This document shows, in pieces, positions 20,994-43,374 of a DNA stretch of 64,000 bases. Source of the stretch: Gracilariopsis chorda. Its lineage: Eukaryota > Rhodophyta > Florideophyceae > Gracilariales > Gracilariaceae. Location: assembly GCA_003194525.1 (NCBI GenBank), contig NBIV01000030.1, forward strand, positions 124,001 through 188,000, written 5' to 3'. A program made the position numbers and the translations under genes. Under the pieces are notes generated by a model that was not told the origin of the DNA, ran no database searches, and was given only the letters and a program-made list of their open reading frames with translations. Position 1 is the first letter of the stretch. Each line of letters begins with the position of its first letter.

Positions 20994-22688
20994 ATGCCGC
21001 AGGTCGGCGAGAATTGGGTCAGCCCTGACACAGAGTTCGACCATCGCCGCCTTCCGGAACGCACACCAATTTCCCGTCGTCGGATTGTTCTTCCCTCTCC
21101 TGTGGATGAGTACGTTGCTGCCGCCGCTGAGTGGTTCGATGCTTCTCGCTTCTCCGCCATCCGGGTTCGTCCGAGCATTGGTTATAGGGCTGGGAATAAA
21201 CGCCTTCGCGACGGTGCGTGGGAAGCCCGATGGGGGCACATGCGAATCCGAGTCAATGACGGACCTCACCTTAATGCCGTACGAACGGAACTCGCTGTAT
21301 CCGTTGATATGCCGTGGGTTCGGTGCGCACAGGAACGAGATTATCAACACAGACTTTCCGTAATTCTCAGCCGCCTTCGGGATCAATATGATTCAACCAC
21401 CGACACGGAACCCTTCCCACCACCAGGCCACAATCTCCTTGCTCTAGTCGCGTGGCGGGCGCCGTTAGACGGATTCTACCTCACCTGCGAGCGTTAGCGC
21501 TGGGGTGATGACATCAGCGACGAAGCACGCATCCGGAGCTGTCACGTGGTGTTCTTTGGATGGCACAACCAGGAGTTCCACGATGTTCTTCGTCCGAAGC
21601 GGCAGGGCTTATATCTTCCTGTTCCACAAGAAGAGCGGATGTTCGACGTTTCGAGGTATCTCTGTGTGCCGACTCCCCCGATTGCGGCATACTATTCGGG
21701 CGTGATGCTCGCCGAAGGGCGGCTGCCATCCATCGCCCGCACTGTTCTCCAGACGGAATGGGCAGTGCTGGCATTCTTCGCGTTCCTTTACGCAGCCCGT
21801 GACGGACTACCAATGCAGTTGAAGTTCTCCGACTGGCGCCTTGGACAAGATGCTGACTTGGACGCTCCGGTTGGACGGCTGTTCGGGCTCACATGTGAGC
21901 TGGTTCGCTTCATCCGGGGGCTCGGCGTCCAAAACATAGTCCGCAGAACCGCATTCGGCGCAGAAGAAGCCGACTCTCTCCTGGATTACGTCGTCAGGAT
22001 CGACTGGGAAAGGACACCGAGCCCCGGATACTTGTGGTACGACTACGACGAAGACCGTTTCACGGATATCCCAAGGCATTCTGTAGGGCGTGATGATGGC
22101 AAGGAGTACAGAAACAACCCTCCTTATCTGCCGGAGTCGCAGTGGATGGCGGCGCCTCGCGACTACGCTCCACACTATTTTCCACAAGCAGCGGGGTTCG
22201 TTCGGGAATGCATCGCTGGTATGCAATTATTCAATACCGTCAGCGGAGATGACGATGACGAAGGCGCATTGGCCGTCCAGTCTGAAGCGACACAAGATCC
22301 GACTCGGACGCGCCCAGGCGTTCGCTACATGCACCAGCGCCGGGTTTGTTCGGTCAATATCGAACCAGATTCGGTAACTGCTCTGCATCATGTCCATCGG
22401 AATTCCGTCGTGACTGAGGAGCTCGACTTGTCCACCGATAAAACACATCTTTCAGCAGCACTGTACCGAGCGTATTGCAAGTTGAACGACCGGTGTGCAG
22501 AGCTGGAAGTGCCGGTATCGGATAGCATTACGCGAACACTGGACCACGCGATGGAATGGGTGGTGGAACTGAAGCGCCATGCGAGCTTGCGAATTGCTGC
22601 GTCCCACCAGTGTAACGAGATAGTCAATCAGGTGAGGCGTTTTCCAGAGAGCTCAAATCCGTATTCAGATTCGTTCTGCGATGCCTAG
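20994..22688 (+). CDS. Antisense accessory protein of gypsy-2, one in-frame stop
   Basis: Lies inside gypsy-2 between the chromodomain end of pol and the 3' LTR, on the strand opposite gag-pol. From the ATG at 20994 the frame runs 565 codons, interrupted once by TAG at 21495-21497, so the first part is 167 residues and the rest is open from 21498. Related to the antisense frame of gypsy-1: shared VLxTEW (VLQTEWAVLAFFAFLY here), RTPxxGxYxxYDxxxxRF (RTPSPGYLWYDYDEDRF here), and an FPPPGHNLLALVAWRA segment matching FPVPEEYHCDIAFYRT there. I recognise no known domain, signal peptide or membrane span, so it is not an obvious envelope protein. The nearest promoter candidate is the 3' LTR read backwards. 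Antisense extra genes are known in some plant gypsy elements; I infer a similar arrangement. Confidence 0.75.
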
Positions 22689-23000
22689 AAGCCGAGATAC
22701 GGGCAATTCTTTGTTTCGGTCACTTTTTCGGCTTGCAAGCCGGTTTCAAAAAATCTGAACAATTCCGGGGCGGATTATTTGATACTGTCTCGTGCGCCGT
22801 GGCAAAGCCTTTCGCGCTATAAGCTTCTATGCTTTCCAGGTGTCACACCAGGTTAGCTTCTCAAGGGGTGGATCTTTAGCATTGTTGACGCCGTTTCGGG
22901 GCTCGTGGTTCAACCGCCGTGTCATTGCTGCTGTGCGCCGCGTCCCGATGTGACGCAGTACCGCCTTGGGTTTCAAAGTAGGAGCTTTGGTACCTTCTGC
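22689..23000. other. Spacer between the antisense gene and pol in gypsy-2
   Basis: About 310 bp with no gene. The antisense gene and pol converge on it, so it should hold both transcript ends. Confidence 0.5.
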
Positions 23001-26000
23001 CTACTCTGTTGAGTCAGAGCGACACGAGAATGATTCACTATGTCGAGTTTCGATTTCGGTGTTTTGTACCCCCCTCTCAGTCGGCAACGCGTCCTCGCGG
23101 CGAACCGTTCTTCGGAAGTAACGCGCCACAAAGTTGTGTGGAATGTTCCGCTTCTGTTCCCATGTGGGCTTCTTGAAGCCGTACCACTTAACGCGGACCA
23201 GTTCTTCTCCGTCTTCGGCAACTCCATGGTCGATGACCTTCTCGACCACCCATTCCTTTTCTGCCGATATCGGATCAGAAGCCTTGGAGTGAGAGTTCTC
23301 CGCGTCTGGGACTTTGTCGGGATCAACCGATACCAATTTTTCTGCGATTGCAGAGCCATCCGATGCGCGTTCGCGCATGGGTTCTGGGAACGACTCATCC
23401 GTTCCAACTTCATTTTCCTCCAATTCTTTGGCTGTGGCCGTGTTCGGTTGGACCTTCTCAGAAACCGTAGGTCCAGCTGCCGTCACCCGGTCAATACTAA
23501 CTATATCTTGTAGCCCGTCGACGTCAAGCGTGACCGTACTGTCGGTAGCACGGATGACTTTGTAGGGGCCTTCCGAGTTCGGTAGTAGTTTCCGGACGAT
23601 ATCTTCGTACTCGGTGGATGCTTTCTTCCGAGGCGGGATATCTAAGTAAACCATATCACCCTCCACAAAAGTTGGCTTGTACCGTATTCGGGAGTCGTAG
23701 CAGGTTTTGTAGCGCTCCTGTGCAGTACCTAATTTCGTGTAGCCCAGCTTCATGAGTTCGGAAATCCGGGCGCGCGTGACGCGCTTGGGTTCTCCCGGTG
23801 TCGGGACGAGGGATGCCGTTTGCGGAAGTGCGGATGTAGGGTCATCCAGCACGATCCCTGGAGGGTGCCGAGTGAGGGAGAGGTCGAAAGGAGTGAAAAA
23901 CGGTTGAACGGTGAACTTGCAGGTTATACCCGTACACGAGGGGCTGGACCAGCTTGTCCCAGTCCTTCTGGTGTTCGGATAAGTAGTGTCGCAAGCGGTT
24001 GATCAACACTTTGTTAAACCTTTCGGCCTGTCCGTTCGTCTGCGGATGATAGGCGGCTGTAAGTACATGCGTAATTCTGAGATCGTCTGCAAGCGACTCG
24101 AAATACTTGGCGACGAACTGCGGACCGTTGTCGGTAAGTAGGTGGGTAGGAATCCCGTAAGGGTAAACCCAGTTCTCCAAGAAAGCGATGGCGATGTCAG
24201 TCGCCTTCGTATCCGATAGCGGTATGGCTCTCGTGAGCTTCGTGAAGCGGTCCGTTATCACTAGTATGTACTTGTTTCCGCGTCCGGTTTTCGGCAGTGG
24301 GCCAAGGATGTCCATAGCCACGAATTCGAATGGTCCCGATGCCGGGAACAACTTCAAGTATTTCTGGTTCTTGAAGTATGTTCCGCGAATGGCTCGACAT
24401 GGCTCGCACCGTGAGACGGTTTCATATAAATGCTGTGACATGAGGGGCCAGTAGAAGTCCTGTCGCAATGTATAATACATCTTGACGGAGCCCGGATGAC
24501 CAGCCAGGCGTGGGTAGTGAGAGAGATAGAGTACTCTATCCCGTAGAGACTCCGGGACGACCCTCTGTATGGCTCCGTCAATCGATGAGATTCTGCAGAG
24601 TATTCTGGAGCGGTTTTAATCGAACTGGGACTTCGGATCTCCAACGGACAGCGCTTTCTCCTTGCAAAATGGGTCCTCTGCTTGGGCGGCGATAAACTCT
24701 TTGACCGTTATCGTGGTGATGTCAGGCTGTCCCGGTACGGTCGCCATAACGTGCAAGGGTTCTCCTGTGCCCGTAGTCGTCGGAAAATTCACCAGTACAT
24801 TCTTGTAGACTTCTCCGTTCACGGTAACATCTGTGAGGACATATTCCGACTCGGATTCATCCTCGTCCACGAATAGACATGGTATTTCATCCTCGAGAGG
24901 CGTTTCATCGTTTCCGTCTGTTGGCATGCGGGACACTGCGTCCGCGGGAAGGTGCTTGATCCCGGGATGGTACTGGACTTCGAAGTCGAACTCCGCGAGG
25001 CGCAAGCGCCATCTGGCGAGTCTTCCGGTCGCATCGGTTATATTTAGAAGCCAACGCAGAGCGTTGTGATCCGTTCGAACGATGAACCGTTGTCCTTCAA
25101 GGTAAGGCCGTAGGAGTAGCATGCTCCAAACGATGGCCAAGCACTCACGTTCGGACGTGCTGTAGTTCCTCTCCGGTGCAGTTAACGAACGTCTCCAGTA
25201 CCCAATTGGTCGGAAATCTTTCGCATCCCCTTGTTGCTGGAGCAATGTGCACCCGACTTGACGGTTACAAGCATCCGTTTCCAGTATGTAGGGCTTACCG
25301 GGTTTCGGGAGAGAAAGAATTGGAGGTGAGGTCAATTTCTCCTTGAGTGTTCTGAAGGCCTCCATATCTTCATCCGAAAACGGTTCCAGGTCCACGGGTT
25401 GGTTCTTTTCTAACTTCCGGTTTAGCGGATGGGCGATTCGTGCAAAGTTGGGCACGAAACGTCTGTAAACGTTACAGAGGCCCAAAAATGCCCGAAGCTC
25501 AGTCTGTGTCCGTGGCGGTTTAGCTTTCGTAACAGCGTCGCAAGTCCTCGACGCCATTTGAAGCTTTCCGGGTCGGATGACGTGCCCCAAGTAGTCAACA
25601 GCCGATTGGAAAAAGAAGCACTTCTTTAGCTTCAACGTTATTCCGGCTTCTTTGAGGAGGCCAAGTACCTTCGTCAGGTGCTTGAAATGATCCAAAACAG
25701 AACTAGAGTATATTATGACATCGTCGAGATACACTATAGCAAACTGCCAACGAACCTTATTCAGAATGACGTCTATGGCCCTCTGGAACGTCGCCGGGGC
25801 GTTCTTCAAACCAAATGGCATCCGAGTAAAGCGTTAAAGACCCACATGAGAGGTGAAAGTCGTCTTATCCCTGTCGGGTTCGTCGATTTCCACTTGCCAA
25901 TATCCCCAGATGGCATCAAGAGTGGAGAAAATCCTTGCGTCTCCTAGTGAATCAATACACTCATTCATTCGTGGTATCGGGTAAGAGTCGCGAACCGTGA

Positions 26001-27189
26001 CAGCGTTGAGCTTTCTGTAGTCCACGCAGAAGCGCCATGAGCCGTCCTTTTTCAAGGCTATGACTACTGGGCTTGCCCATTCTGCCGAAGACGGTTCAAT
26101 AAATCCTTCGTCGAGCATCTCCGCGACTTGCTCCTTCTCCCATTCACGGGCCTTCTGACCAGATCTGTAGGGGACTTGTTGCACCGGTCGGGCATCGGGT
26201 TCCATGTCAATCCGATGTTTGACGGCTGTGTGGTACCTAAATGTCCATCCCACATGTCAGCATACTCGGAGAGCATCTGAATGATCTTGCTCCGTTGCGG
26301 TTCATACTCTTCACCGATGTTAACGGTCGATGTCCAGTCCGCGTCTGGGTGTTTGTCCCTGAATTTCGTACCCCCCTTCTCAGTGTTGTCGACGTCCTCG
26401 TCGACCTGATTATGGGTTGTATCTGTAATGGAGAGGATAGCCGCAGGTGCTGGGTCAGTATTACCGATGACGTTTTTTTTTCGATAAGTGTGTAGGGCGG
26501 TCACTCATGTTCGAAACCAATACGTAGAAAGGCCGATTCGGAAGGACTTCCATAACGCCATTCACCAGCAACTGGAGGTTGCGACGCGTTGTGTGAAGGT
26601 GATTCTGTGTGTACACCAGTCCGTGCGTATCGAATTGAACAAGGACTGCGGTTTCGGACATAGGAGGGAGTAATATTGAACGAGCGACTCGAAGCTTCGT
26701 TGATACCGTATTACGGGGGATTCGAGCGGGGATGGTTACACCGTTGCGGAACCATTTCGGGCATCTAAAAGAGCCACCGGCGGTGAGTTGTGGAACGATA
26801 TTTTTCCGTTCCTTGGGGTAGATCGCTTTGACATAGCAGTCTATAAATGTAGTACCCAGTATGCAGTCGACTGCTAGGTTGGATGAAACAAGGAACCAAA
26901 TTCGGACCTTCAAGTTACCGAGGCGGATGTCGAGAGGAACGACACCGAGGATGGGCATAGAGCGACTTGACGCATCCGATACCCTAGGAGTATCGAGCGG
27001 TAGTAACTTCGATTCCCATCCGGGTGGTAGTACGCGGGTGTGAATCAGGTTCGGTGAGGCACCTGTATCCAGAACGCTGGTAATCATTCGTGTCAATCGG
27101 GGACTGTGATAGAGGGCTGTCAGGACCTTATAGTTCTGACTTCGGAACAAGTACACCGGTTCGGAAGTGTCGAGGGTACAATTCAACAC
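23001..27189 (-). pseudogene. Gypsy-2 pol: protease, RT, RNase H, integrase, chromodomain
   Basis: Aspartic protease (SVLDTGASPNLIH) at about 27190-26465. Reverse transcriptase (WRFCVDYRKLNAVT, MPFGLKNAPATFQR, YLDDVIIYS) and RNase H (ETDACNRQVG, VRTDHNALRWLL) to 24616. Integrase with H2C2 finger and intact DDE residues (AMDILGPL, LLTDNGPQF, HPQTNGQAERF) to about 23860. C-terminal chromodomain (EKVIDHGVAEDG, VKWYGFKKPTWE) near 23250-23100. It is almost one frame. Lesions: a shift at an A-run (about 26470), compensated near 26240; TAA at 25834-25836 replacing the Tyr of the usual GLYRFxRMPFGL; TAA at 24616-24618; and a shift at a T5 run near 23880. The homopolymer shifts could be sequencing errors; the TAA codons are substitutions. 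Confidence 0.9.
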
Positions 27190-27278
27190 TTCATAATGGA
27201 GTCCATCTTCCGTAACGGCGGTCCGTTCGACGGCTGGGTGTCCATTGAGGCTATCACCTTTGACAGGGCGCGGTGCCT

Positions 27279-29629
27279 CTACGCGTCCTGCTGAGCGTTT
27301 CCCCTCTCTTCATGTTGATGGGCGTGATCCTCTTCCAAAGCAAGAACCGAACGACGAGTGTTCCTGTTTGCAGGTGGAGGACTTCCGGGGATCGGAGCTG
27401 TATTGTTGGCGCGACTTCCCTGGCTACCAACATTACCGGGACGACTTCCCTGGCCTCCAGTAAATGGCATCTGACGGCGGAAATATCCTTCATCAACACG
27501 ATGGGAGTAGTTTTGCTCACGCTGCTGAAGCAACTTGTTCCGGATCTCGGCAGGCATCCATTCGCAACATGGGCGAGTAGTTGACCAGCATAAGCGACAT
27601 GCTGGGTTCCGGTTCGGGTCAAAAGACTGGCGTGGGGTTTGGTAGGCCGAGTACGGTGCTGAAGGCGCCGTATCTTGGCAACTCATATGAGAAGGTGAAA
27701 CAGAACCGGTAGTTGGTATCGACGGGAAGGATACGCTCGGCGAGGGCATCACTGCAAGTGCCTCGCCAGCCGGGTCTTGGACTCCATACTACTTTCCGGT
27801 TCGGCAAGGAGGGCTCTGGTGTGAGACTTACGTGCGTCGCCAGCCTTCTCAGTCGTGGAGTAAACTTTCTTACCACCACGGTGAGTATCTCCTAAACCTT
27901 CCGCGAAGAGAACCAACTGCCGGAATCCGATCTTCCGGTGCGTGGCAGAGTGGTTGCGAACCGAAGCGCGGATGGCGGGCAGTAACGATTCCACGAACAA
28001 AGCCTTAAGCCGAGAGTCGGTGAAAATGTTCCCGCAACGGAGACTCTTCTTCCATAGACGGTCTGCAAATTCACTTTCCGTTATACCGGAACTCTGCCGA
28101 TAAGTGATGATATCGTGATACGCTTCTGCAATTTCTTCGTCGGTAGCGTACGTTTCCAGGAGATGGTTTACGACCTCCGGATAGAATCGTAAGAGCTCAT
28201 CATCCTCATCCGAATCCACCGCACCAGACTCGCCTGAGATGCGGTTCTTGACGAGTTCCAAAGCCGGGCCGGATGTGAAGAACTGAAAGAGCCAAACGGC
28301 CCCCTCATGAATGCCGTTCTGGTTGCATGCGGTTTTGAACGCGCTAAGAAACTTGAGAACCGTGATCGGATCATTCCCACTGAACTTCTCGGGAATCTGT
28401 AGCGCCATCCATTTTGCGGACTTCGCGACTGTACGGGTAACTCGGGCATCATACTTTCCGGAACGGTTCATCAAGCGGTAGGTCTTGAAGTTCAAGACCT
28501 TGGCAAACTCCCGATTGTTCGGTTTGATTCGCCGGATACGGGAGATATCGGATTCATCTTCCGTATCGGAGGATTGACTCGTATCAGAGTCAGAGCGTTC
28601 CGACTCGGTGTCAGAATCAGAATGTCCATAACGAGAATAACGTGACCCTCGACGTTTCCTGTTACGGGTCTTCCTTTTGTTACGCTTCTTTTTCTATGAC
28701 TTCGGCATGGCGTTCGACGTGCCTCTCACGATCTCCCTATCACGGAGGAGGCCATCCGAATTCGGTACCAGAACTGGATCGACGTACGACGTGCCCCGCA
28801 CAAGCTCTTTTTCGTGGAGGAGGCCATCCGAGTTCGGGTTCACCCGAGCCGGTAAGGGGTTCGACGTGCCCCAGATGATCTCATTATCACCGAGGAGCCC
28901 TTCCATTCTCGGATTTCGAGCGGCTTTCGACGTGCCCGCCGTGAGCTGCCCCTCACGGGGGAGGCCGCCCGTATTGAATACTTCATCCCTAGAGGGTTCA
29001 GCGCGGATTTCCCTGTTGGGGTGACTCAGTTGCTGCAACACTTCCGTTGCGGAGATAGGTCGAGGGTGAGTTCCGGCAGGTAACAAACGATGCCTGCGGA
29101 GTTGGTTCACGACTTCCGTTTCCACGGTTTCGACGACCGCGTCGGTTACAACCGAAGCATTCCGAAAACGGGTGCACACACTTAACACAATGATGGGGAG
29201 GTGCGTTTCTATTCCGGACCGGACTCGCTGTTCGAGGACAGTATCGACCTGAACAGGCACTCGATTGGAGAGTTCCTCCGACAACCGCCTCTCCAAGTGG
29301 GGAAGGAGGGAGGCAAAATCCGAGACGTTTGGTGCGTCTAGTAAGGCGGAGATTGCCGATTCGGGGCCACGAGTCTGCACGGGGGGTGCAGGTCCAGGGT
29401 CTCCTCTTCCTCGTTCCGTGTTCGGTTTTGCTTCTCCGGTGCGGCGGAGCAAACGCTCCGGGTTATCAACTTGTGGTACAATCCCTTAGGGCTCACTGCG
29501 CGTGCTGTTGGACCGTGGAGGCGGCAACGACATTGCAGGGGGATTCGGTTCCGGGCGCGCACGTCTGCGCGTCGACGAAACCGATTTCGGACGAGCGAGC
29601 TCGTCAAGCCGGGACGGTTTAGAAGTCAT
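27279..29629 (-). pseudogene. Gypsy-2 gag with internal 4-fold peptide repeat
   Basis: From the ATG at 29629 the frame runs through a stop (TAA, 29486-29488), a region of four tandem 22-25-residue units at about 28990-28716, a second stop (TAG, 28694-28696), a strongly basic stretch (KKKRNKRKTRNRKRRG), a Ser/Asp-rich linker, and the capsid-like domain (WMALQIPEKFSGNDPI to FRQLVLFAEGLG, about 28400-27900). A frameshift near 27750 leads to the nucleic-acid-binding end with a damaged zinc knuckle (CRLCWSTTRPCCEW; gypsy-1 has an intact CCHC). The capsid domain is distantly similar to that of gypsy-1. Confidence 0.82.
28716..28990 (-). repeat. In-frame tandem repeat within gypsy-2 gag
   Basis: Four units starting with GACGTGCC on the + strand at 28716, 28788, 28863 and 28929, with spacings of 72, 75 and 66 bp. 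All spacings are multiples of three, so the frame is kept. Each unit encodes a variant of NSDGLLREREIVRGTS. Confidence 0.85.
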
Positions 29630-29707
29630 CAGGAGTGATGCGACGTTTTAGGCTACTCCTTCTTCCGATACGGTGAAGACAGATCTGTTGTTCCCACGAA
29701 AGGACCG

Positions 29708-29727
29708 TTCTAGGTCAGGAGACCAGT
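29708..29727 (-). other. Gypsy-2 primer-binding site
   Basis: Directly inside the 5' LTR, the minus strand reads ACTGGTCTCCTGACCTAGAA. The TGG start fits pairing with a tRNA 3' CCA end. It matches the gypsy-1 PBS at 19 of 20 positions. I cannot name the tRNA. Confidence 0.75.
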
Positions 29728-30265
29728 TGTGAGATAGTGCGCGCGAGCGCCCTACTCAGGTGAAATGTCCGGGAACGGTGACGGTGGGTATCGCGCAACG
29801 GGGTGTAAGGCCGTGCGGCTACCCAGTCGGAAAAGGCGGAACGGTGAAGGTGCGGAGTAGCGCAGGACCCTCTGCTGTGAGGCCGAGTACGGAGACATGC
29901 GTAGCCGAAACAGGTACCACGCGCCTAAACAGAGAGCCGATGTAACGGTAGATATCCGATACGGCGCAGCCTGTACAGGACTTTGACGAGCTGCGTCTCT
30001 TACTACGACTTAGGATCCGTGCCAAGGAACTAAGACGAAGAACCTAGTAGGAAGCACCTTGAGTTTACTTGGTGAGGGCGTCGGCCGCGCTGGCTGAGAA
30101 TAAATATCCAGCTGGGCCGCGCCACACGTGTATGGCTTACCGCTCGCGGGGCACTAGCTGCCACCGGCACACACGTGTGCTACTACAACTACTACACTAG
30201 CCGAATAGCGGAAGGGCTCCTACGGCCAGAATACCACTCCAATAAACGGTTTTCACTTCCTTACA
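29728..30265 (-). repeat. Gypsy-2 LTR, right copy (5' LTR of the element)
   Basis: 538 bp, same ends as 20300-20837 and near-identical to it. Confidence 0.93.
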
Positions 30266-30598
30266 GTCACCATCTTTAAACGTTGAGGTGCTTACCTTCT
30301 GCAGGAGGTTTAGTTTGGATTGCATGTTATCCTTCTTGTATGTACACTCAAGTTTCGTCCACACCTCCAACGCAGAGCAGTACTCCCGTTCTAGTAAATT
30401 GGAGACAGCACCGATAGACTGCGTGCCCAATTTTTGTACGATGGCCGATCTTGCCTTTCGATCGGTGTCGTTGGACTGCTTGCGTGCTTGCGCGTTACCA
30501 TCAGTTGGGCGTGGTTCTGTGAGCACAAATAGTGCTTGCAAGCTGTGCATTATGTCCCGCACGTATATGCGCCCTGTGTTGTAGTCGGTGTTCCATTT
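30266..30598 (-). pseudogene. Ty1/copia-type gag fragment
   Basis: About 105 codons with the Retrotran_gag (UBN2-type) pattern: WNTDYNTGRIYVRDIMHSL, ARSAIVQKLGTQSIGAVSNL, and ALEVWTKLECTYKKDN followed by SKLNLLQKV. A stop codon precedes it at about 30597 and the gypsy-2 LTR cuts it at 30265. No copia pol is present. Confidence 0.75.
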
Positions 30599-31379
30599 TT
30601 AGTCTGGATATACGTTTGGTATCGTGATCCTTATCAATGTCCATCGCGGAGTATACTCTACGCGAGAGGCAGATAAGGTGGCAGATGAAATGTCTTCACC
30701 GGTGTCCTACCGGGGGAGGGATTCGTTTTTTACTTCTTGACCGTTCGGGGCCACTGGCAGGAGATGCTATCCCTGAATTGCTAAAGGTCAGACCACTGGC
30801 TCCGAGTAAGACTCTAATGGTGAGATGCGATTTCAACAGCCTGCCCAAGTTCTGTGCAATCCAGTACGAGTGTGCGTGTAACGTACGGGATGTCCAGGAG
30901 AGGTTACTGATAGCAGAATATGTGTTCACCAGTTCACCTCCTCTGATCCCTTTCGGTTACTTGCTCGGTTACTTGCTCAGCAAACGGGCTCCGGCTCGGT
31001 CGCCTATCTGTTGTTGAAGTCCGTTCATAACGATGAGACACCCCGTCACCGACGGTTTGCAGCCACACCCCAGCTGTGCCGGTTATCTAGTGCGCTTATT
31101 CGCCACCGGACTAGTTCAAGTCCCCTTTCGGTTCTCTTACGGTACTCAGCTTGTGGACTGCTTTGAAAGACCAGTTGCCAACATCCACTCAGTCGGTAAT
31201 GGCTGCAGAGGCCCTGCTCGGGACTTGGTATCTTGTTTTACAGCCAAAGTCTCTGGTAGGGTGTTGACAGGCGAGACCTTGTGTTCAGGACTTAGCAGAC
31301 AGCGGCGGATAATAACAGCATCGACAGGGGAGGGGAGGAGGTTGTGTTTGTATGCCGGAAGGCTGTGTCCACGAGGGAG
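30599..31379. other. Region without recognisable gene
   Basis: Short overlapping frames only, no domain seen. A 246-codon + frame starting at 31033 continues into the minisatellite and is not convincing. Confidence 0.5.
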
Positions 31380-31735
31380 AGGGCGTGGGGGGGGAAAGCC
31401 AGTCCTAAGGCGGCAGCTGCGGGAAGGGTTCAATGGCGAAAGCCGCAGCGGGGGGGGAGGGAGAAGCCGTTCCAAAGGTGGCAGCCGCGTGGAGGGGAGG
31501 CCGGCCGAAGGCGAAAGCCAGGCGGGGAGGAGAAGCCGTTCGAAAGGCGGCAGCCACGTGACGGAGGCGGCGTCCAAAGGCGGAAGCCCAAAGGGGGGAA
31601 AGGCAAAGCGTGTCCAAAGGTGGCAGCCGCGTGGGGGGGGGGGCCAAAGGCGGAAGCCGCAGGGGGAGAGAAGAAGCTGGTCCAAAGGCGTCGGCCGGGG
31701 GGGAAGAAGCTGGTCCAAAGGCTTCAGCCGCAGGG
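31380..31735 (+). repeat. G-rich imperfect minisatellite
   Basis: Repeated variants of GTCCAAAGGCGGCAGCCGC separated by G-runs of 4 to 10, about nine copies with irregular spacing. The + strand is G-quadruplex-prone. Frames through it encode low-complexity Arg/Gly/Ser/Lys peptides. Confidence 0.85.
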
Positions 31736-32907: not shown

Positions 32908-33680
32908 TGAAGTGCAACGCTAATAGCGCTATCAGCACGTGGTGCAGTCATATTCCGCGTTGGCGATGCTAACCTCTCTAACATGGAGTATGAGTGTTAC
33001 ACCGGTACGTTGTTTCCGTTTGAAGGGCCCCAATTTGGTTGACAAGTGTAGTGCACAGCATTGCTGGCTTGTGCCACACGTGTGTAGAGTTTCGCACCCC
33101 CTTAAGAATATTATTACTTAATTACTACTGTACTGTGAGGGCGCAGGCCACCACTACTTATGTGTGTGAGCTCCGGCTGCCCGGGTCAAAGTAAAGGCAA
33201 CAAGCGAGTGTCTGGCTCTAACTCAGGTTCCCTGGTGATTGTCCACCTCCATCTGGAGAGACGTCATCCTGTGAAGGCCTAGTTACCCACCTCGTGGAGC
33301 TTCAGCACATTCTTACCACTACTGTGTTTGTTTCTGTGCACACTTTTACAGCGGTTATTGTTCTTTTGTCCCGTATACAGTTGTCGTTGTTTCTGCGACT
33401 ACCGGTGATTACCGTTGCTCCGCTACCACCGCCCCACTCGTGTGGACACCGCACCGCTCTTGCGCGTCGCCCACCACTCGTGTGTCGCTGCATTTTCCGC
33501 TTTCCCACTTCGTGGTCTGTCTTGGTTTCTACACCTGTACGGTACTCGTGACGGTGAGTCCCGGTCTTACACCCGGCTTTCTGTGCTCACCACAGGTGGT
33601 TTTGCCGCGGCGCTACCCTCATAGAGGAAAACGTCGAACACCCTTGTGTGTCTGCTCCCATCTCGGGGTATTGCACTACA
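32908..33680 (+). repeat. Gypsy-1 5' LTR
   Basis: 773 bp, direct repeat of 43562-44334. Open frames common to both LTRs are not genes. Confidence 0.93.
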
Positions 33681-33702
33681 AACTGGTCTCCCGACCTAGA
33701 AG
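33681..33702 (+). other. Gypsy-1 primer-binding site
   Basis: AACTGGTCTCCCGACCTAGA starts directly after the LTR. Apart from one C/T it is the gypsy-2 PBS, although the LTRs are unrelated. Confidence 0.75.
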
Positions 33703-33949
33703 ACCATCGAAGTGTGTTTTGTGATCTCGGTTTACCGGATTACATACCTGGTTGCCGAATTACTCGTTGAAGTTTATTTTGCGTTGTGACCAACTGTGTT
33801 GTTGAGGATCGCCAATTGTTCGGGTGTGTTTTCCCACAAGTGGTTGCGTGGTACCTCTTAGGAGTAGATGTTCGCTCATTCGAGGTTTGTTGGTTTTTTG
33901 TTTTTTTGTTGTTTGCTTTCTGTTCCGATCAGTTTCAGTGTCTTTCATT

Positions 33950-36043
33950 ATGGGTTCTGGAATTGGATCCCGTGGTTCTGATCAGTCTAGGTCGGGACAA
34001 GTCGGCGCTGATTTACCCCCGCGATCGCGGTTAGTTCCCGAACGCTCGGATGTTGATAACCGCACATCTGGAAACAGGAAGCCATCGAATAAGTCGTCCC
34101 AACTGCCAGTTGCTGGTTCATCGGATGCTCCGCCTAGGAATTCCGTACCCACCGCTGCGGAGAAGGACGCATTCCTTGTCGAGTTAGAGGCTCGAGTGCA
34201 GAACCTTCAAGCCCAGACCTCGGTGCTTGAAAGTTCTCACGCCGCCCTCGTCAATGAGGTTGATGCACTCCGTATGAGGATTGATGCCGATCTCGTCGGA
34301 GGTGTATCTGAAGATCTACGTACTTTACGGACTGATATTAATTCCCTTTTGGAGGTTTTGAGGGGTTACCCAGATATGGTGAAGGATGTTGACTCGAAGT
34401 TTCATCGGATTCTGTCCCGTCTGGAGACGTTAGAAAATACCATCAGAGGTGATGAAAATGTCGCGGACCCACCAGCTGTGGTTTCCCATCGACATGGTGA
34501 CCATGCTCGCACGAAGAACCGCCCCCGGAAACGGAATGACAACGACTATGACTCGGACTCGTCCCGGTCATCGGTGAATTCTAACCGCTCTGCGGAATCC
34601 GCTTCGTCTGACTCGTCTGCTGACGGTGACCGTCGCGTTCATTCATCGCACTCGCGTCGTTCAGCAGCCACCCATGGTGAGATTAGAGCCCGACAGAAGG
34701 GAAGAAAGCACTCCGGTTTGAAGGAACTGAAGCCTACTAACGCTTTGTACAGGAAGCTTTTATCATACCGGTACTACAGTTTGGGAGATTCCTCTTTGGT
34801 TCGTACACCCCGAGGAACTATGAAGTTAAAAGACTGCATCAAGCGGATGGCTTTGTCGTTCCGTAACCAGAATCTCACTGGATAGGATCCGATTCTCGTT
34901 CTGGATTTTCTTTCACGCTTTATAGCGGAGGCGGATATCCTCGGAATGAGTGAAGGACAGGATTACGTCGCCCTACCGTATTTCTTATGTGGAATCGCTG
35001 AAGATCAATTCAACTCTGTAAGAGGTTCGTCTCGCGCCTCTGAAGGAGGGGTCACTTGTTGGCCCGAAGCCGTTCAGTATTTGCTACACTCGTACGCGAC
35101 AGGAACCACAATACAGGAACCTATCCTGGCCCTGCGCGATACTAAGCAACGCCCGAAGGAAACGGAGACCGAGTACTCAGTTAGACTGAACAAGGCCTTC
35201 CACCGATATGGCAATGTTTATTCCGCTAGCGAGCGTTGTAAAATTTTTATCGACGGATTGGATCCGGCTATTTGCACTCTTGTGGCCCAACGTTGGGAAG
35301 ACAGGAGAAAGGTTTCCTACTTAGAATTGGTACAGTACGCAAAGGCATAAGGAGATGCTCTACGTGCCCGCTCCGGAAGCAGAGTCAGATCGCAGGCCCT
35401 ACACATGGAGGCTGCCCCGTCATCAGTTTCACTGCTGCCCCAGGAGTACTCTCGACGTGAGGTTGATAATCTTTACTTTACTCAGCATGATCTGGTTTCC
35501 ATACCCAAAATGGAGCTCCCGTCCACAACGAAACCTTCGGTGGAACCGGATAGTCAACTGCTGTATGCAGATCGCCACCGCGTTCGCGGCCCACAAGTCC
35601 CGTATGCTAACGGAAATCGTTACCAGAGACCTGGTTGGGTTGACACGCGCTCCTCGGCGGTGAAGGTTCAGGACAACCGAAACATCGGGAGATACCAGAC
35701 GTTGATCTGTTACCTTTGTTACGACCATGGACACACGGCCCCGCAGTGTATCATGACTCTGAGGGAGATGCCCAAAGTGGTTGTTAACTACGAAGCCCTG
35801 ACCCCGGTAGAACAGGCATCAGTTCCTGTTACCGCATACTTGCGTGCGAGGACCAAGTTTCCTCGTAAGTTTACACCAGTTCATTCTGAAGCGGTACCCA
35901 ACACTGGTTCTTCCACGGCCACCGCTTCTGCCAGTCAAGCCGCTTCGGCGGATGGTTCTATTTCTCGGCAACCGGCTCTGCTAACCGCCTCAATGCCACA
36001 AAATATCATTCCCGTGAAAACGGATGCCGCTCAGGAAAACTGA
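33950..36043 (+). pseudogene. Gypsy-1 gag with two in-frame stops
   Basis: One frame from the ATG at 33950: a coiled-coil segment (about residues 60-165), a Ser/Asp/Arg-rich linker, the capsid-like domain (DPILVLDFLSRF, EYSVRLNKAFHRYGN) and a canonical CCHC zinc knuckle (CYLCYDHGHTAPQC, about 35707-35748). TAG at 34883-34885 and TAA at 35348-35350 interrupt it, with no indel. Gag packages the element RNA. Confidence 0.85.
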
Positions 36044-36141
36044 GTGGGGGAGTCTCTTTTAGAGAGGCGCCTCAGTCGAGGTCATCGGCGCCCAAGGCGT
36101 CAAAGCCTCGCTCCCCGGTCAAGATCCTTTCAAGGAAATTA

Positions 36142-39100
36142 TTGACCACCACAGACGTGGACTCGGCCCACCTCGGTGAGTTACGTCGCCCGTGGATACG
36201 GTGTAAGAATCACCGGTCACCGGATAGATTCATTGTAATGGCCAAGCGAAACTACAAAGTTTTGCTGACTTTGGCCTTTCCGCCCAGTATATGGTGCGTC
36301 ATCTGTCTATTCTGGATACAGGTGCCGGCCCCTATTTCATTGTCGAATCTCTCTTACCGCCTGAAGTGCGTTCTCGTGTTAGACAAGGACCCATCATGGA
36401 CGTTGCTGATGCCGATAACAACCCGTTGAAAACGGCTGGTACGGTTTCTCTGATGATCAGGATTGGTAACTGTTCGATGCAGCTCGAATTCATCGTCTCT
36501 AAGACGCTAGTGGCCCCCGTTATCGTCGGATGTGACTTCTGCGATCGCTTCGTAGAGTCAATTCGTCCGCGTGCGCGAGAAGTTGAACTAGAAGATGGTT
36601 CCATCATTCCGATAGTTCGTCGTTCATTACGGCGTACCTCATCCAAGTTGGTTCCTCTTCCGGCCCCCTTGCAGGATTCGTGACCTCCAAAGGAGTCTCC
36701 CAAGCTACGTGTCGCACGTCCAATCTCCATACCGCCCGAATGCAGGCGTGAGTTTCAGTAACTGCCGCTCCAAGAGGATTGCGTGTTGTTCAACCGCTCA
36801 CCTCGCTGTACGAGAAGTATCAATTCGCCCTGGCTAATGGTGTCGTTCAGATCTCAAATGAACACCCCTTTCAGGTCTTGATAGCCAAACTTTGGCAAGA
36901 AGCCGCAGTACCTGGCGAAGAACCAAGTAGTTGGTACTGTACTTCCGCATCCAACGGCTTTAATCCCTACAAAGGTGTGCGCAGCCGATGTACTCGGATT
37001 AGTTCAAGAACGAAATGATACGCCTCATGCTAAGGAGGGGGAGGGTTCCCACTCTTCTGTAGAGTCGCTCAACACGAAAGATTCGGAAAAGAAGGCCGTT
37101 CCTACGAGTTACGATAACTTGGACGCTGTAAAGGAACTAGAAGATCTGGATCTCAGTCATGTACCGGATTCACACTGCGAGAAGTTGCGAAATATGTTGC
37201 GAGATTTCACCTCAATGTGGGATGGATCTCTCGAGGAGGTCTCGGCCACGGCACACCGGATTGATCTAGTACCGGACACCAAGCCATTGCTCAACACCCC
37301 TATAGGGCAGGTCTCAAGGCAAGGGAGGAGGAACAGTTTCATGTGGATAAAATGCTCCGCGAAGGCGTGATAGAGCCCGCTCAATCACCGTAGGCATCTC
37401 CAGTAGTACTGGCTCCAAAACCCGATGGGACTTGGCGTTTTTGCATCGACTACCATCGCCTTAATGCCGCCACCGTGAAATACGTGTACCCCATACTGCG
37501 AATGGATGAGTATATTGACTCTCTCGGTGAGGCGACTGTCTTCTCTACATTGGATGTGAACTGGGGATACTGGCAAGTACCAGTAAGACCGGAAGACCGT
37601 GATAAGACCACTTTCGTCTGTCATTCAGGTTTGTACCGCTTTAAGCGTATGCCATTTGGATTAACAAACGCTCCCGCTACTTTCCAGCGTGCGTTGGATA
37701 TCCTCTTGGCCCGCTTCAAATGGCGATCTTGCCTCGTCTATCTTGACGATATCATAGTCTTCTCCAACAACTTGGATGATCATTTACAACACGTTCGTGA
37801 AATCATGACCACGTTGCGTGATGCTGGAGCAACCCTCAAGCTGAGGAAGTGCGAATTCTTTACCGAGTCGGTTAAGTACCTGGGCCATGTCATTCGCCCT
37901 GGGCGCTTACTGATACAGGAAGCTCGAGTCAAATCTCTCAAAGAGGCCAAGCACCCGAGAACCCAAACGGAACTCCGCTCCTTTCTAGAGTTATGTAACG
38001 TGTTTCGACGGTTCATTCCAAGCTTCGCAAAGATTGCGGGACCCTTAATGATCTTCTCAGAAAAGGACAACCGCCAAAACTGGGCCCCCTTACCCTGCAC
38101 AGGTGGAAGCTTTCAACTCTCTGAAGGAGGCTGTCACCTCTGCATCGATATTATCGTTGCCTAAGGATAGGTTACCTTATACCGTGGATACGGATGCGAG
38201 TGATTACCAAATTGGTTGTGCGTTTTTCCAAACGACTCCCGATGGGGAACGAAAACCAATCGGTTTTTGGTCCAGAACGCTCAACGTCCACGAACGGAAC
38301 TACTCAGTCCCTGAAAAGGAATGCCACGCCATGTTATGGGCTCTGCAAACACTCAGACCATATCTGATGGGCGCACACTTCACCGTTAATACGGACCACT
38401 CCGCTTTGCGTTGGTTAATGTCCGTCACGGAACCTTCGGGTTGCCTGATGCGTTGGAGACTACGCCTCGCTGAGTTCGATTATGAAGTCTTCTATAAAAA
38501 GGGTTCCCTAAATACCCAGGCTGACGCTCTGCCACGTTTAGGAACGGAAGCGGAAACCCTTCCCGTCGATGACGATGATATCCCTTATTTCCTACTTGAA
38601 GAGAATTCAAGTTGTGATCTGGTTTCAGATGACATTGTTGATGATCTGCTTGTCGCTGACGGTGGCGAACCGGATACCGGATCCTTCGCACCGATCACTC
38701 CCGAAGAGATGATTCGCGAACAGTATGGAGACCCGTTTTGTACGAAGATTCGTGCCCAACTCAATGGAGGCGCTCACATTCCTTTTGGAGTTGACTCACA
38801 AGGTTAATTGGTAAGGACTGTGTCTTCTTCGTCACAAATAGTGGTTCCCCATTCCCTTCAGTCGAGAGTATTGCATCTCTCGCATTTCTCGAAGTTAGCT
38901 GCACACCCTGGTGGAAGGAGGCTCTACACGACGTTACGTCGGCCTTTCTACTGGCCCGCACTTGCGTTGGATTGCTACGCGATTGTTTGGTCTTGTACTC
39001 ACTGTGCTCGTGAACAAGTGAAAATGCGCCGCTATACGAAGAAGTTGACCCTGTTCCCGACACGGGCCCCGTTAAAACTTGTCGCTATCGATATCCTCGG

Positions 39101-39782
39101 TGAGTTCCTTCACACTTCACGTGGTAACAAGTTTCTACTCGTAATAACGGATAGGTTCTCCAAACTCTTCTGGACTGTACCGTTGAAGAAGATTACCGAA
39201 CGTTGAGTGGCCGAAGCATTCGTCCGTCACTGGGTTCTCGTCTACGGTCCACCGGTTAGTCTTTTATCCAACAACGGACCGCAGTTCACCGCGCGTTTCT
39301 TCCAAGACGTTTGTAGAATACTTGACATCAGGAATCTGTTTACAACGACATACCATCCCCAGGCTAATGGGCAAGTGGAACGGTTTACCCAAAAGTTGTT
39401 GTCCGCTCCGCGTGCATATACGGTTGAGCACCCCCGTACTTGGGATTTGTACACGGATACCGTGACATACGCGTATAATACGCAGGTACACAGAGTAACC
39501 GGCTTATCACCCTTCGAGCTGGTGCTCTCCCGTCCGCCGCCACCTGTGGCGATAGAGTCACAGTCAACGCAGGACAGGTACCTGTCAACGGTTGATCATT
39601 ACCTCCGATGGAAGGACTGGCTAACACGGATGGTCCCGGTCGCAAAATCTTCAATGAAGCGAGCGCAACGCGCGTATCAACGAAATTTCGATGCCCGACT
39701 CCGTCGGCCCCTTTTCTCGCTCGAAGCAGGACAGTTTGTTTTCGTCAGGAAGGAATACTACAACCCTGAGAAGGAGAAATGA
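36142..39782 (+). pseudogene. Gypsy-1 pol: protease, RT, RNase H, integrase
   Basis: Protease (ILDTGAGPYFIV) at 36291-36683. RT (WRFCIDYHRLNAAT, MPFGLTNAPATFQRA, YLDDIIVFS) at about 36975-38100. RNase H (DTDASDYQIG, NTDHSALRWLM) at 38103-38807. Integrase at 38808-39782 with zinc finger and first and third catalytic residues (AIDILGEF, QANGQVERF). The second catalytic Asp is lost: LLSNNGPQF where the family has SDNG, so the integrase should be inactive. Frameshifts near 36690-36980, 37320 and 38090, plus stops at 38805-38807 and 39204-39206, make it non-functional. Confidence 0.88.
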
Positions 39783-41528
39783 CACAAACTCTCGCCCATT
39801 GCGGATGGCCCCTACAAAGTCATTTCAGTGAGCCGAGACACAGTTGTACTGGAAGTTGGTGATTCTCAGGAACGGTTCAGCCGTGATCGTGTCGTACAAG
39901 CCCCTTACCCGCATTCGGAAGTCGTTTCTGCTCCCGGAGCCCTGGACGCTCAATTGATGCCAACTGCCGCAGCAGGATCCTTGCACCGCTCAATTAGCGT
40001 TGCGTGCCCGTGGAGAGGACTTTCAGACATACCGATGCTGTCGCAGCAATCTTTGGAAACTCCGGTACACGTTCGTTCACGCTTTACGCCACGTGTCGAA
40101 CCACCGTCAGACGTTGTTTCAAGCCCTGTCGCCACCCCGGCTAAGGAGGGGGAGGAGGCCAGTCAATCCCGCTTTTCAGCGAAGTCCACACCGCCGTCGC
40201 GAGCTCTGGTAAACTACTCGTGAGACACGGCAACCTGAAGTAGGGACATCGCACGCTACCGCCGCACGCGTGGAACTACCTCAGCAGACTGGAAGGACCG
40301 GCCCCGCCGATGGGCGTTCTCGTGAGCACGCTACGCAGTCACCTCCGTCGAGGGAGCGAACTGTCAACCGCACTCGCGAGACGCTGTCAAGGCAATCGGA
40401 GACGGACGCTGTTGTATCATCTCCCATTGGAGGAATGGACGCAGGAAGCCTGGCTCAGAACCCGAACGCTCCGTTGGCTCCCCACTCACCGACGACCGTC
40501 CAGGATGTCGTAAGAAGCCCCGCCGCTGCAGCGCAGATTAAAGAAGTCACGGCAGATCCCGACTTATGGAACCCTGATGTAAAGAACGCTTCTACACCCT
40601 CGCAAAGTGATGCTCATGGTCCCACAGATGGGTTATCTGAATTTCAATCGTCTCTCATCAGAGGAAGTCTCTCTGGTACTGTACCGAGCAGCTCAGATCA
40701 TCTGGATTCAGCTCACAGTAGTGAAAGACTGGTTGAGTCAACCCCAGCAGGGGTGGCCCACACTGCATATGCAGGAGAGCCTGACCGCAACGTGTTGCGA
40801 GATGTGCACCGCACACCCACTCATGGTGACACAGCTCTGCAGTAAAGGATGATGACAGCAAACCATTTCGGTACGCCTCGCCAGCCGGCACGCGCCGTGG
40901 CCCATGAACCGCCTCCCCGTCGCCGACCGTCACAAATGGGACGAGGAAGCCTTCGCACTTTAGCGGTACGATCTTCCGAACCCGATGGGGTAAACTCAAC
41001 CTCACTCACTCCCGTGGCCGACACCGCAAGCGAGCGCCAGGAACCGTTGGACGGAGCCATCACCGGCTCCGCCGTTGGAAAGTACCATCGTGCGGAATGC
41101 AACCGGAACCGCAAAGCGTGATGTTTACTCGAGGGAGTTCATTATCGACCGTATCGTCGGGCACAGTTACAACCAAGAGGGATATATTCAGTACCAGGTA
41201 CGCTGGTATGGGTACCCGGCGTCCCATGACACGGACGAACCAGTAGAGAACTTGCCCCGATCGAAAGTCGTGCAGTATCACCACCGTACCAGAACGGGAA
41301 TACCTGGCACGATTGACCGTGCGCTCGTTGGGTAAGCCACTGAATCGATCAGGTGAACCGCGAGCCCGGTTTCCCGGTGTGAAGATGGAGGCCTCGAGAA
41401 GACGAGAAGATTGGAAACCTCATGAAGGGAAGATGAAGATGGCTCATGAAGAGAAGATGAAGACCTTGGATAGGAAGAAGCAAGAAGAAAAAGAAGAAAA
41501 AGAAACAAGCCCCACGAGGGAAGTTTAG
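39783..41528 (+). pseudogene. Gypsy-1 pol C-terminus: long linker and chromodomain
   Basis: After the integrase a Ser/Thr/Pro-rich segment of over 1 kb (39828-41060, at least two phase changes) leads to a chromodomain at 41110-41300 (EFIIDRIVGHSYNQEG, VRWYGYPASHD). A Lys/Glu-rich tail ends at 41528. Chromodomains direct such elements to modified histones. The linker is far longer than in gypsy-2, where only about 130 residues separate the two domains. Confidence 0.75.
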
Positions 41529-41629
41529 CGTTTATTCGTTAACACGTAACTCCCCCGCTTACTACTACCACGACCCCCACTATCAGGGACGGTGGACGCC
41601 AACCGTTGGGAACACATCACTTTGCTCCC

Positions 41630-43374
41630 TCAAAAGGATGGACCACCACTCTGATGAGGATGGCCTGGCTGCGCCAGCCACGCTAGCATGACCGCCCGCA
41701 TTTGCGAGATGTCACCGGAAGATCCCGAGGTATCCATTCCTAGTTCGCCAAGGATTTGGGCAATGATGGCCGCGCGGTCATGAACGGACACATCCGCCGA
41801 TGGCGCGCTACTTCCAACCGGAGCGGTATGGAAGGGACCACCACCGACGTGGGGAATGTTCCATGATAGAACGTGACTCGGCCCAGCCGGAGGAGCCACG
41901 GACGGACCCGAAGTGGTATACGCCGGAATCCCGGAGCCCTCAACTGAGAAAAGTCCATCGCCACAGCTCGTGCCCCCCCAGTCGTGGGAGGATCATTTTT
42001 CATCATTGGATCGGCCTCCTCGCAGGGTTGGAAGTATCCGTCAGTGACGATGTAGCCCCTCGGATGACTCGGTGGAACAACTCGCTCGTGATCGTGGAGT
42101 GCCAATGCTTCCGGTTCGGAGATGAAACGACGCTCTACAGGATCGTAGTAGACGTAATCACCCGCTAACGGAGTACGGCGCCCCGGAGACTGGTCGGCTG
42201 GGTTGGTACCTTGATGAAGGCGACTCCATTGAATGGGCACACTGTTCCAGTTAACCTGGCCCATCGCGTCTAGCAGGGAGAGTGCCCCATTATAGTTGCC
42301 GGCACCGCCGAGAACGAGGGGGAGATCCACTTCACGGATGCCGCTACGCACTCTCGGAGGAAGATACCAAAGTCTGAACTGGTCGTAGACCTCGAAGAGA
42401 AGATACGCCGCTGCGCAGGCGACCCACTCAGTGAGTACAACGGACTACCACCTGCAGAACGGATTGCTGCACAGTCGACTACCGATGTAGGTGATGCACG
42501 GCGGAAGCTCGATATAGCAACCCCTGCAAGCCTCGTAGGCACCCCACATCCTGGGTAGGGGAACGTAACGGCCTCGCATGTACTGCGGTCGGATGCGCTC
42601 AGCTTCAACGTTCTGATACGGTATCATATACCCGAAGCGGGATCGCAAGCGATGTTCGAAACGGAGCATCTGGAGAACGTTAGACCGCGGATGATGGCGA
42701 AGATAACGGAACTCAGCACGAAGGATCGGTCTCGCCCAACACAGATAGGTCTGGTGGACTGTTGCTGCCGGACTCCGTTCCGGGATGGACGGAGCCAACG
42801 CTGCTAAGCGGTCGGCATACCCCATCTCGCCTTGGGTGCGGTAGAATGCGATATCACAGTGATATTCTTCCGGGACCGGGAATTCCGACGGAGTCCGATA
42901 CAGCCGCTGATACGCGAGTTGAATCATTGCGATACGCGCTTGCGCCCCATTCTCACCACGACGGTGTACCAGAACGTGTGTTAGCACGGCAACCCGGTTA
43001 ATCCAGTGGAAACTGAGTGTCATCCAAACATGAAGATCACCCGGCAGCAGCCCACTACCATCAGCGTACTGTTCGATGAGGTCTTCATGCTGCACCAATG
43101 TTGGGTGAAATCAGGGCGCACCGCTGTAGCGAGACGGATGTTCGGCCGGATCAACGGAAACGAGCTCATCATATGATGGTAATGCGCTCGCCGCAGGCGA
43201 TGGAACCGACATGCTCGGAGTGGCAGGTATACCGCCTGAAGCGTTGGTTGGAGGACCTGCAGAAGACAAGAGTGGTGCAGTCGGATAGCCGGAGAAGAAA
43301 CCCGATGGCGGAAGATCGTTCCCGCCATGCGGATTGGTGTCGTGCGGATTCATCGCAGTAGGAGCGGAAGACAA
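41630..43374 (-). pseudogene. Antisense accessory gene of gypsy-1 (homologue of the gypsy-2 one)
   Basis: From the ATG at 43374 (MSSAPTAMNPHD) the frame runs leftwards through a TGA at about 43111, a TAG near 42445 and on to about 41900, where a phase change leads to an end at 41630. The segment after the second stop reads SVVLTEWVACAAAYLLFEVY and later RTPLAGDYVYYDPVERRF. Both match the gypsy-2 antisense protein (VLQTEW; RTPSPGYLWYDYDEDRF), in the same order and spacing. Location and orientation are also the same: after the chromodomain, before PPT and 3' LTR, opposite to gag-pol. No known domain seen. Confidence 0.72.

Follow-up and report, generated by a model that had tools for sequence, protein, structure and literature searches.

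Some retroviruses and plant LTR elements are known to carry accessory genes on the antisense strand. In the red alga Gracilariopsis chorda, a 64 kb genomic window (the window being the whole stretch of DNA analysed) holds two gypsy elements, gypsy-1 and gypsy-2, each with a long reading frame opposite to gag-pol, and this raises the question of whether the two frames belong to one conserved protein gene and, if so, what that gene does for its carriers. The features of the two elements are listed below.

20299..20838, − strand: gypsy-2 3′ LTR (direct repeat with 29727-30266, 98.1% identical)
20994..22688, + strand: gypsy-2 antisense gene, broken copy (stop TAG at 21495; profile match)
23085..26691, − strand: gypsy-2 pol, in pieces (tblastn with the pol of L019 and its chromodomain part)
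23085-23276, − strand: gypsy-2 chromodomain (tblastn with the chromodomain part of L019 pol)
29708..29726, − strand: gypsy-2 probable primer-binding site, directly after the 5′ LTR (role judged from position)
29727..30266, − strand: gypsy-2 5′ LTR (repeat of 20299-20838)
32908..33681, + strand: gypsy-1 5′ LTR (direct repeat with 43562-44335, 94% identical)
33683..33701, + strand: gypsy-1 probable primer-binding site (role judged from position)
36888..41290, + strand: gypsy-1 pol, in pieces (tblastn with the pol of L019 and its chromodomain part)
41117-41290, + strand: gypsy-1 chromodomain (tblastn with the chromodomain part of L019 pol)
41636..43650, − strand: gypsy-1 antisense gene, broken copy with several stops (tblastn with L012, 90% identical; profile matches)
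43562..44335, + strand: gypsy-1 3′ LTR (repeat of 32908-33681)

Two homologous antisense genes in elements with unrelated LTRs

The first-pass annotation had placed a gene opposite gag-pol, between the chromodomain and the 3′ LTR, in both elements, and this arrangement was borne out; both copies are broken, a point absent from that reading. The + strand frame of gypsy-2 (20994-22688) has a single internal stop, the TAG at 21495, and the − strand frame of gypsy-1 (43374-41630, 581 codons in total) has stops at codons 88, 310, 545 and 564. Homology to L012, a relative with an open frame, spans 43650-41636 of gypsy-1 and switches frame near 41975, and by this homology the gypsy-1 gene begins within the 3′ LTR. 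The LTR pairs are identical at 530 of 540 aligned positions in gypsy-2 and at 729 of 774 in gypsy-1, and the 19 bases at the primer-binding-site position after each 5′ LTR differ at one base between the two elements. The LTRs of gypsy-1 and gypsy-2 are unrelated to each other, as had been claimed, with blastn at word size 7 returning only chance words of 10-13 bases. A third gypsy element in the window is without the antisense gene.

Homology of the two proteins had been proposed from a few shared motifs, which alone are weak (BLASTP with one piece per window gene, E 0.032); the profile match is significant. Profiles built from intact gypsy-1-type and gypsy-2-type relatives aligned in hhalign at E 1.5e-15 over 202 columns, with a score of 130.2 against a best of 27.3 among 199 column shuffles. 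Among window frames of at least 40 aa, an HMM of gypsy-1-type proteins only recovered the gypsy-2 frame at E 1.2e-9, and the reverse search with the gypsy-2-type HMM gave E 2.3e-4. The gypsy-2 frame was also reached by tblastn of the open gypsy-1-type protein of L012 against the 64 kb window (E 5.8e-4), and the two pieces of the gypsy-2 gene matched the gypsy-2-type profile at E 2.3e-90 and 3.9e-40.

Distribution among chromodomain elements

The family is large, with 108 scored matches in the G. chorda genome to the gypsy-2 gene and 150 to one piece of the gypsy-1 gene, and many copies have open frames of 600-774 codons. Pol or the chromodomain end lies on the opposite strand in all 26 elements (the two in the window and 24 fetched around the gene), a count that shows orientation and not gene frequency, because every one of these elements was found through the antisense gene itself; six of them (L021, L030, L035, L036, L037, L045 (pol deleted)) are represented by just the chromodomain/pol end or by one cut piece. 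How often the gene is absent within the clade was judged from six chromodomain places sampled regardless of the gene, in even steps through a list of 150. Five of the six have it, one copy being interrupted by a stop and another by an internal deletion, so that the expected frame stands beside other chromodomain gypsy elements both in the 24 further gene-chosen elements and in most of this independent sample. Two hand-picked chromodomain places lack the gene. Among the matches listed, those to the antisense gene lie 652-995 bases from 24 of the 150 chromodomains in the list, with the strand and side expected, where about 0.8 such cases were expected; one further match is placed otherwise.

The carriers are chromodomain-bearing Ty3/gypsy LTR retrotransposons. 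RT, RNase H, integrase and chromodomain follow in order in the three longest pol frames (L019, L022 and L023; Pfam, eight proteins scanned), and chromodomain matches were found in these three and in L025 and L035. The chromodomain alone is insufficient for assignment to the chromoviruses, because brown-algal chromodomain gypsy elements fall outside the chromovirus clade (PMC12477816). LTRs flank both window elements and an element on contig C69, most other copies having been fetched in part only. The C69 element, with LTRs 99.8% identical over 478 bases, is recently inserted; its gag and pol frames are open on the same strand, and the opposite strand has a frame of 738 codons.

Two sequences stand apart. 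On contig C260, the 5.1 kb beside the antisense gene (L040) shows no pol; a non-autonomous element carrying only the antisense gene was considered and rejected as a rule, because L044-L047 of that group have pol opposite the gene, and the contig looks rearranged. P0011 combines DnaA domains with the second half of a family member; it probably reflects chimeric assembly and was excluded from alignments and tblastn queries.

Coding capacity and selection

In each of the 10 open copies examined, the antisense frame alone is open and the other five frames have 7-33 stops. The dN/dS ratio is not near 1 in all copies, but lies at 0.20-0.27 in the four oldest measurable pairs (L019-L024, 0.195; L012-L015, 0.22; L012-L033, 0.24; L019-L029, 0.27, with dS saturated). 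Younger pairs in the 609-codon group range from 0.25 to 0.64 (36 pairs), and most of the newest pairs are near 1, though not the very close pair L045-L050 (0.28, 13 differences). Differences are concentrated at third positions in the four pairs tested (p 1e-19 to 3e-3). The frame is almost certainly a real antisense protein gene of these elements, conserved by natural selection as they diverged.

Inheritance with pol

Across 19 elements, the antisense tree and the RT-integrase tree are closely correlated (Mantel r 0.96, p 0.0001), also within the two groups (r 0.93, p 0.0001; r 0.97, p 0.0057), and share 12 of 16 splits. Three conflicts, involving L027 (RT 99 versus gene 72), C36/C290 (RT 100 versus gene 84) and the near-identical L019/L022/L023 (RT 82 versus gene 97), may reflect some recombination. 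For the sampled elements, the trees place the antisense gene in their common ancestor and indicate inheritance with pol since, and this agreement between gene and RT trees reinforces the earlier suggestion of a gene retained through the divergence of the LTRs. Its rate of evolution is about 2.6-2.7 times that of RT-integrase, which fits a protein meeting changing partners. Such a rate fits a structural protein too.

Protein properties and proposed role

The protein has roughly 460-770 residues, of which about 250-400 form a conserved core between an N-terminal region and a tail that are both variable; it is long, with low-complexity tails, and the core is predicted to be mainly helical, although the structure models behind this are weak (mean pLDDT 48 and 55). 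No Pfam domain over cut-off, whether DNA-binding, CCHC or other, was found in family proteins, and a bZIP domain was absent from the six proteins searched at E up to 5. Searches with these weak models found no solved-structure or fold relative, and no family relatives were found in the viral contigs and prokaryote genomes scanned. A KR.R motif resembling a nuclear signal lies near the C-terminus of L019-L022, L029, P0008 and P0009; it is absent there from all listed gypsy-1-type proteins and from L024 (a cut frame), L025, L026 and P0001, and KR.R-type basic motifs also occur inside the core of many members.

Transcription of the antisense gene would run backwards, driven by a promoter within the 3′ LTR. 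This is the most likely arrangement, and one in which we place considerable confidence, because the 5′ end of the gene is near or inside the LTR: the open frame starts 14 bases from an LTR-like repeat in L036 and 323 bases from the LTR in L019, and the gypsy-1 frame extends into the LTR. By analogy with HBZ and with the role proposed for Retand, the protein could act in trans to control expression or silencing of the element that encodes it. It is best read as an accessory protein, possibly a regulatory one, and we infer its backward expression from the 3′ LTR. An accessory gene, backward expression from the 3′ LTR and a regulatory protein are jointly our best explanation, with an about even chance of being right as a whole; a regulatory or anti-silencing role as such is put forward tentatively, at slightly below even.

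A long protein with a predicted helical core, low-complexity tails and fast evolution could also be a structural or replication protein, an additional particle component (capsid-, envelope- or RNA-binding-like) that is coded backwards by chance. We consider this unlikely, since a particle protein coded in antisense would be unusual and since a frame of its own on the sense strand weakly matches Retrotrans_gag; together with the lack of a clear transmembrane segment by hydropathy in seven proteins, this frame argues against an envelope or replacement-gag role, and the Pfam searches (no CCHC or other domain over cut-off) and fold searches with the weak models likewise gave no match in its favour.

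A different function is suggested by the opposed gene order itself, as an antisense mRNA would be able to pair with about 2 kb of the genomic RNA and double-stranded RNA is therefore expected: the protein might protect against RNA silencing or another host defence provoked by the element. Fast evolution and the presence of the gene at five of the six places sampled regardless of it would suit such counter-defence, but neither Pfam nor fold searches found sequence or fold likeness to known proteins, and we would give it only a small share of the probability. Capture of a host gene by the elements is far less credible; extra retrotransposon genes can originate by transduction (PMC11963269), but the antisense tree and the RT-integrase tree match even at the deepest split sampled, which rules out recent capture by a few elements, though an ancient capture would be compatible with it. 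Finally, base composition or sense-strand coding might leave such a frame open as a by-product, with no protein made, but this reading can be dismissed. The dN/dS of 0.32-0.49 in the sense-strand mirror frame of four pairs is below 1 because codon third positions coincide, and that frame has 14-33 stops in the 10 genes examined. The antisense frame, by contrast, stays open for 600-774 codons in many copies, its proteins are related between groups whose LTRs are not, and its dN/dS and open-frame results contradict the by-product reading.

Comparison with known antisense genes

A regulatory protein expressed from the 3′ LTR would have its closest counterparts in HTLV-type retroviruses and in plants. 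HBZ of HTLV-1 is a bZIP protein, whereas the red-algal protein has no bZIP or other Pfam domain over cut-off, and the element class and host of HTLV-1 are also unlike those of red-algal gypsy. The likeness lies in the position of the antisense gene at the element's 3′ end; according to PMC10186651, retroviral antisense genes of the HBZ kind have a promoter in the 3′ LTR, which in the red-algal elements is inferred. Among plant Ty3/gypsy elements, Retand has antisense ORFs with TRP28 (PF04195), Grande and RIRE2 being named likewise, and the gene occurs in most members of the lineage over long divergence, with a regulatory role proposed (PMC11963269). As in Retand, the extra gene of the red-algal elements is antisense to gag-pol and between pol and the 3′ LTR, its position relative to the LTR being established in the window elements and L019. 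Retand elements are, however, non-chromoviruses of flowering plants as described in the same source, while the G. chorda elements have a chromodomain and reside in a red alga. TRP28 was absent from six proteins at E up to 5, and a genome search for it at E up to 10 gave no matches, both without a plant positive control; judged from sequence, the red-algal and TRP28 proteins seem unrelated. Bdelloid rotifer LTR-retrotransposons also carry additional ORFs and resemble the present case, by description only, in having lineage-specific extra genes (PMC5408684).

The layout is thus known from flowering plants and HTLV-type retroviruses, and the protein family appears here without relatives found. 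A literature search with partial coverage (titles and the starts of abstracts) found no antisense gene in red-algal retrotransposons. It is conceivable, though we lean against it, that an LTR-driven antisense regulator with a new fold originated independently in an ancient red-algal chromodomain gypsy lineage; if so, the antisense-regulator layout would have at least three separate origins, in plant Retand, in deltaretroviruses and in red algae. The family spans near-identical to highly diverged members, some inserted very recently, and offers comparative material on how a gene coded backwards serves its element when it can pair with that element's genomic RNA. Gene lists are affected as well, since at least one family member is filed as a host hypothetical protein (BWQ96_03215).

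Antisense genes of the window elements

The antisense gene carried by many chromodomain-bearing Ty3/gypsy elements of the red alga Gracilariopsis chorda (Florideophyceae, Gracilariales; genome 91.3 Mb; window C30:124001-188000) is a conserved protein gene that starts near or in the 3′ LTR and has been inherited with pol in the sampled elements. Both frames in the window lie where the first-pass annotation had placed them, and both copies are broken, by one stop (at 21495) in gypsy-2 and by several in gypsy-1.

16885-19592, minus strand: pol of a third gypsy element, its chromodomain weak
20299-20838 and 29727-30266: LTR pair of gypsy-2, a minus-strand element, 1.9% divergent
20994-22688, plus strand: antisense gene of gypsy-2
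29708-29726: probable primer-binding site of gypsy-2
32908-33681 and 43562-44335: LTR pair of gypsy-1, a plus-strand element, 5.8% divergent
33683-33701: probable primer-binding site of gypsy-1
43374-41630, minus strand: antisense gene of gypsy-1

The LTRs of the two elements had been described as unrelated, and indeed have only chance words in common, with no further similarity. Despite this, the probable primer-binding sites are almost identical, the 19 bases 3′ of the 5′ LTR differing at a single position. The third gypsy element had no match to the antisense family, and the gene may therefore mark one lineage rather than all chromodomain-bearing elements.

Homology and extent of the family

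Homology of the two antisense proteins had been proposed from shared motifs. Aligned directly, two single pieces gave an E-value of only 0.032, so the motif match needed profiles to sustain it. When seven proteins of gypsy-2 type and nine of gypsy-1 type were aligned group by group (the groups named for each window member, with the window sequences in neither), the two alignments matched significantly over 202 columns (probability 98.5, E 1.5e-15), with a score of 130.2 against a maximum of 27.3 in 199 column shuffles. Similarly, a search of the window frames with the gypsy-1-type HMM recovered that of gypsy-2 (E 1.2e-9).

Searches of the G. chorda genome gave at least 108 scored matches to the gypsy-2 protein (682 candidates) and at least 150 to the gypsy-1 piece (1144 candidates), counts that include some second pieces of one gene. 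Many matches are frames of 600-774 codons, and a 738-codon form recurs in near-identical copies (loci L019-L022). Protein searches yielded 11 family members (P0001-P0011), including a G. chorda relative of the gypsy-1 protein (P0003, hypothetical protein BWQ96_03215) and proteins from Gracilaria domingensis (P0004) and Agarophyton chilense (P0010), both of the same algal family as G. chorda. P0001 may come from the same species as locus L025 or a near one, because the two sequences are nearly identical by eye. P0006 (458 aa) and P0007 (461 aa) represent a compact form, 39% and 37% identical to L036 and the least similar of its six hits. The metagenome protein P0011, in which DnaA domains are fused with the latter half of a family protein, is probably a chimeric assembly.

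The gene also recurs beside other chromodomains, as the first-pass annotation had suggested checking. Sampling the 150 chromodomain matches listed of 1784 candidates at regular intervals gave six places (rows 20, 40, 60, 100, 120 and 140; row 80, already a family member, was left out), of which five carried the gene: three open (609-629 codons), one with a stop and one with an internal deletion. The sixth, on contig C195, had a different nearby frame, gag-like by eye. The gene was missing from two hand-picked places, C17 and C119, the latter resembling a chromodomain protein that belongs to no element. Among the matches listed, 24 of 150 chromodomains had an antisense match 652-995 bases away with the strand and side expected, where chance would give about 0.8, and one had a match arranged otherwise.

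Element anatomy and inheritance with pol

Pol or its chromodomain end lay on the strand opposite the antisense gene in all 20 elements first examined and in six of six further ones (L020, L021, L035, L036, L037 and L045). Since 24 of these 26 elements were fetched around antisense matches (the other two being those of the window), and so were picked by gene presence, this shows orientation and not frequency. Orientation was read from 23 residues of the pol end in L021, from the pol end in L030, L035, L036 and L037, and from a damaged pol in L045. Carrier pol domains comprise RT, RNase H, integrase and chromodomain, and a 753-residue frame upstream of pol matches Retrotrans_gag weakly (E 0.0053, under the curated cut-off). 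The C69 element is a recent insertion, its LTRs (L019:1911-2388, L039:2997-3474) sharing 99.8% identity across 478 bases. Its minus strand has gag and pol as open frames, and its plus strand a 738-codon antisense frame that starts 323 bases from the LTR. In L036, 14 bases separate the start of the open frame from an LTR-like repeat; the antisense homology of gypsy-1 extends into the LTR. The C260 copy (L036/L040) is probably rearranged; no pol was found in the 5 kb upstream of it, although the LTR-like repeat is present there.

Trees of 19 elements (L030 lacks RT-integrase), built from 474 columns of antisense protein and 750 of RT-integrase, bear out the suggestion that the gene was retained over long divergence. 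Their distances correlate at 0.96 overall (p 0.0001) and at 0.93 and 0.97 inside the two groups (p 0.0001 and 0.0057), and 12 of 16 splits are common to both, including that between the groups (100 in both). Conflicts that may reflect recombination involve L027 (gene support 72) and C36 with C103 and C11 (gene support 84), each with RT support of 99-100, and one, backed by the gene at 97, lies among near-identical copies. Because the trees agree, the gene is traced back to the ancestor that the sampled elements share. Compared with RT-integrase, the antisense protein evolves faster, by a factor of about 2.6-2.7.

Coding and selection

In all 10 open genes examined, the antisense frame is the sole open frame, with 7-33 stops in the other five. 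Differences at codon positions 1/2/3 number 55/44/135 for L012-L015 (dN/dS 0.22) and 71/73/193 for L019-L024 (0.195); dN/dS is 0.24 for L012-L033 and 0.27 for L019-L029, where silent sites are saturated. Values across copies are thus not near 1 throughout, bearing in mind that all copies compared have open frames, a possible bias to low values. Ratios were 0.25-0.64 in 36 pairs of the 609-codon group and 0.40-0.53 among L034, L035 and L037 (three pairs); two pairs with silent sites too divergent were left without an estimate. Close pairs gave 0.91 (L015-L033, 34 differences), 0.54 (L044-L046, 24) and 0.28 (L045-L050, 13), and L019-L022 pairs, with 5-7 differences, 0.5-2.0, one being undefined. 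Low ratios on old branches and mostly higher ones in fresh insertions are the pattern that a gene selected in a replicating lineage should show.

The protein and its possible role

No Pfam family exceeded its cut-off in the antisense proteins, PHROG gave no match for the two searched, and a sequence search for solved structures returned no convincing relative. AlphaFold models (10 and 12 alignment rows) were weak overall (mean pLDDT 48 and 55), and a fold search with them found no match; the P0006 core was better, with many blocks of pLDDT 70-92 between residues 150 and 390, predicted to be mostly helical. Hydropathy of seven proteins revealed no clear transmembrane segment (maximum 1.58 over 19 residues). 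A KR.R motif occurs near the C-terminus of L019-L022, L029, P0008 and P0009, and is absent from L024 (a cut frame), L025, P0001, L026 and the gypsy-1-type proteins.

The antisense layout is already known from plants and retroviruses. Plant Retand antisense genes carry the TRP28 domain, whereas none was found in six of the antisense proteins or in the G. chorda genome. The literature searched held no account of this protein family, nor any of an antisense gene of this kind from red algae or from chromodomain-bearing gypsy elements. The gene would be transcribed from the 3′ LTR and its protein might act in trans, in regulation or in countering silencing, by analogy with HBZ, the antisense protein of HTLV-1, and with Retand antisense proteins, for which a regulatory role has been proposed (PMC11963269). 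A structural role is possible. Along its whole length such an mRNA would be complementary to genomic RNA, and because this likely cost would have to be outweighed by selection, a regulatory or defensive role is favoured over a passive one.

Other features of the window

The window contains three further features. A 1218-codon frame (12426-16079, plus strand) with indoleamine 2,3-dioxygenase, FAD-/NAD-binding reductase and cytochrome b5 domains is apparently a host gene, an unusual enzyme fusion. At 45351-48020 (plus strand), a PIF1 helicase comes after a Helitron-like replication domain in what is probably a Helitron split between two frames, and a frame at 56957-58135 (minus strand) resembles a DDE_Tnp_4 transposase.
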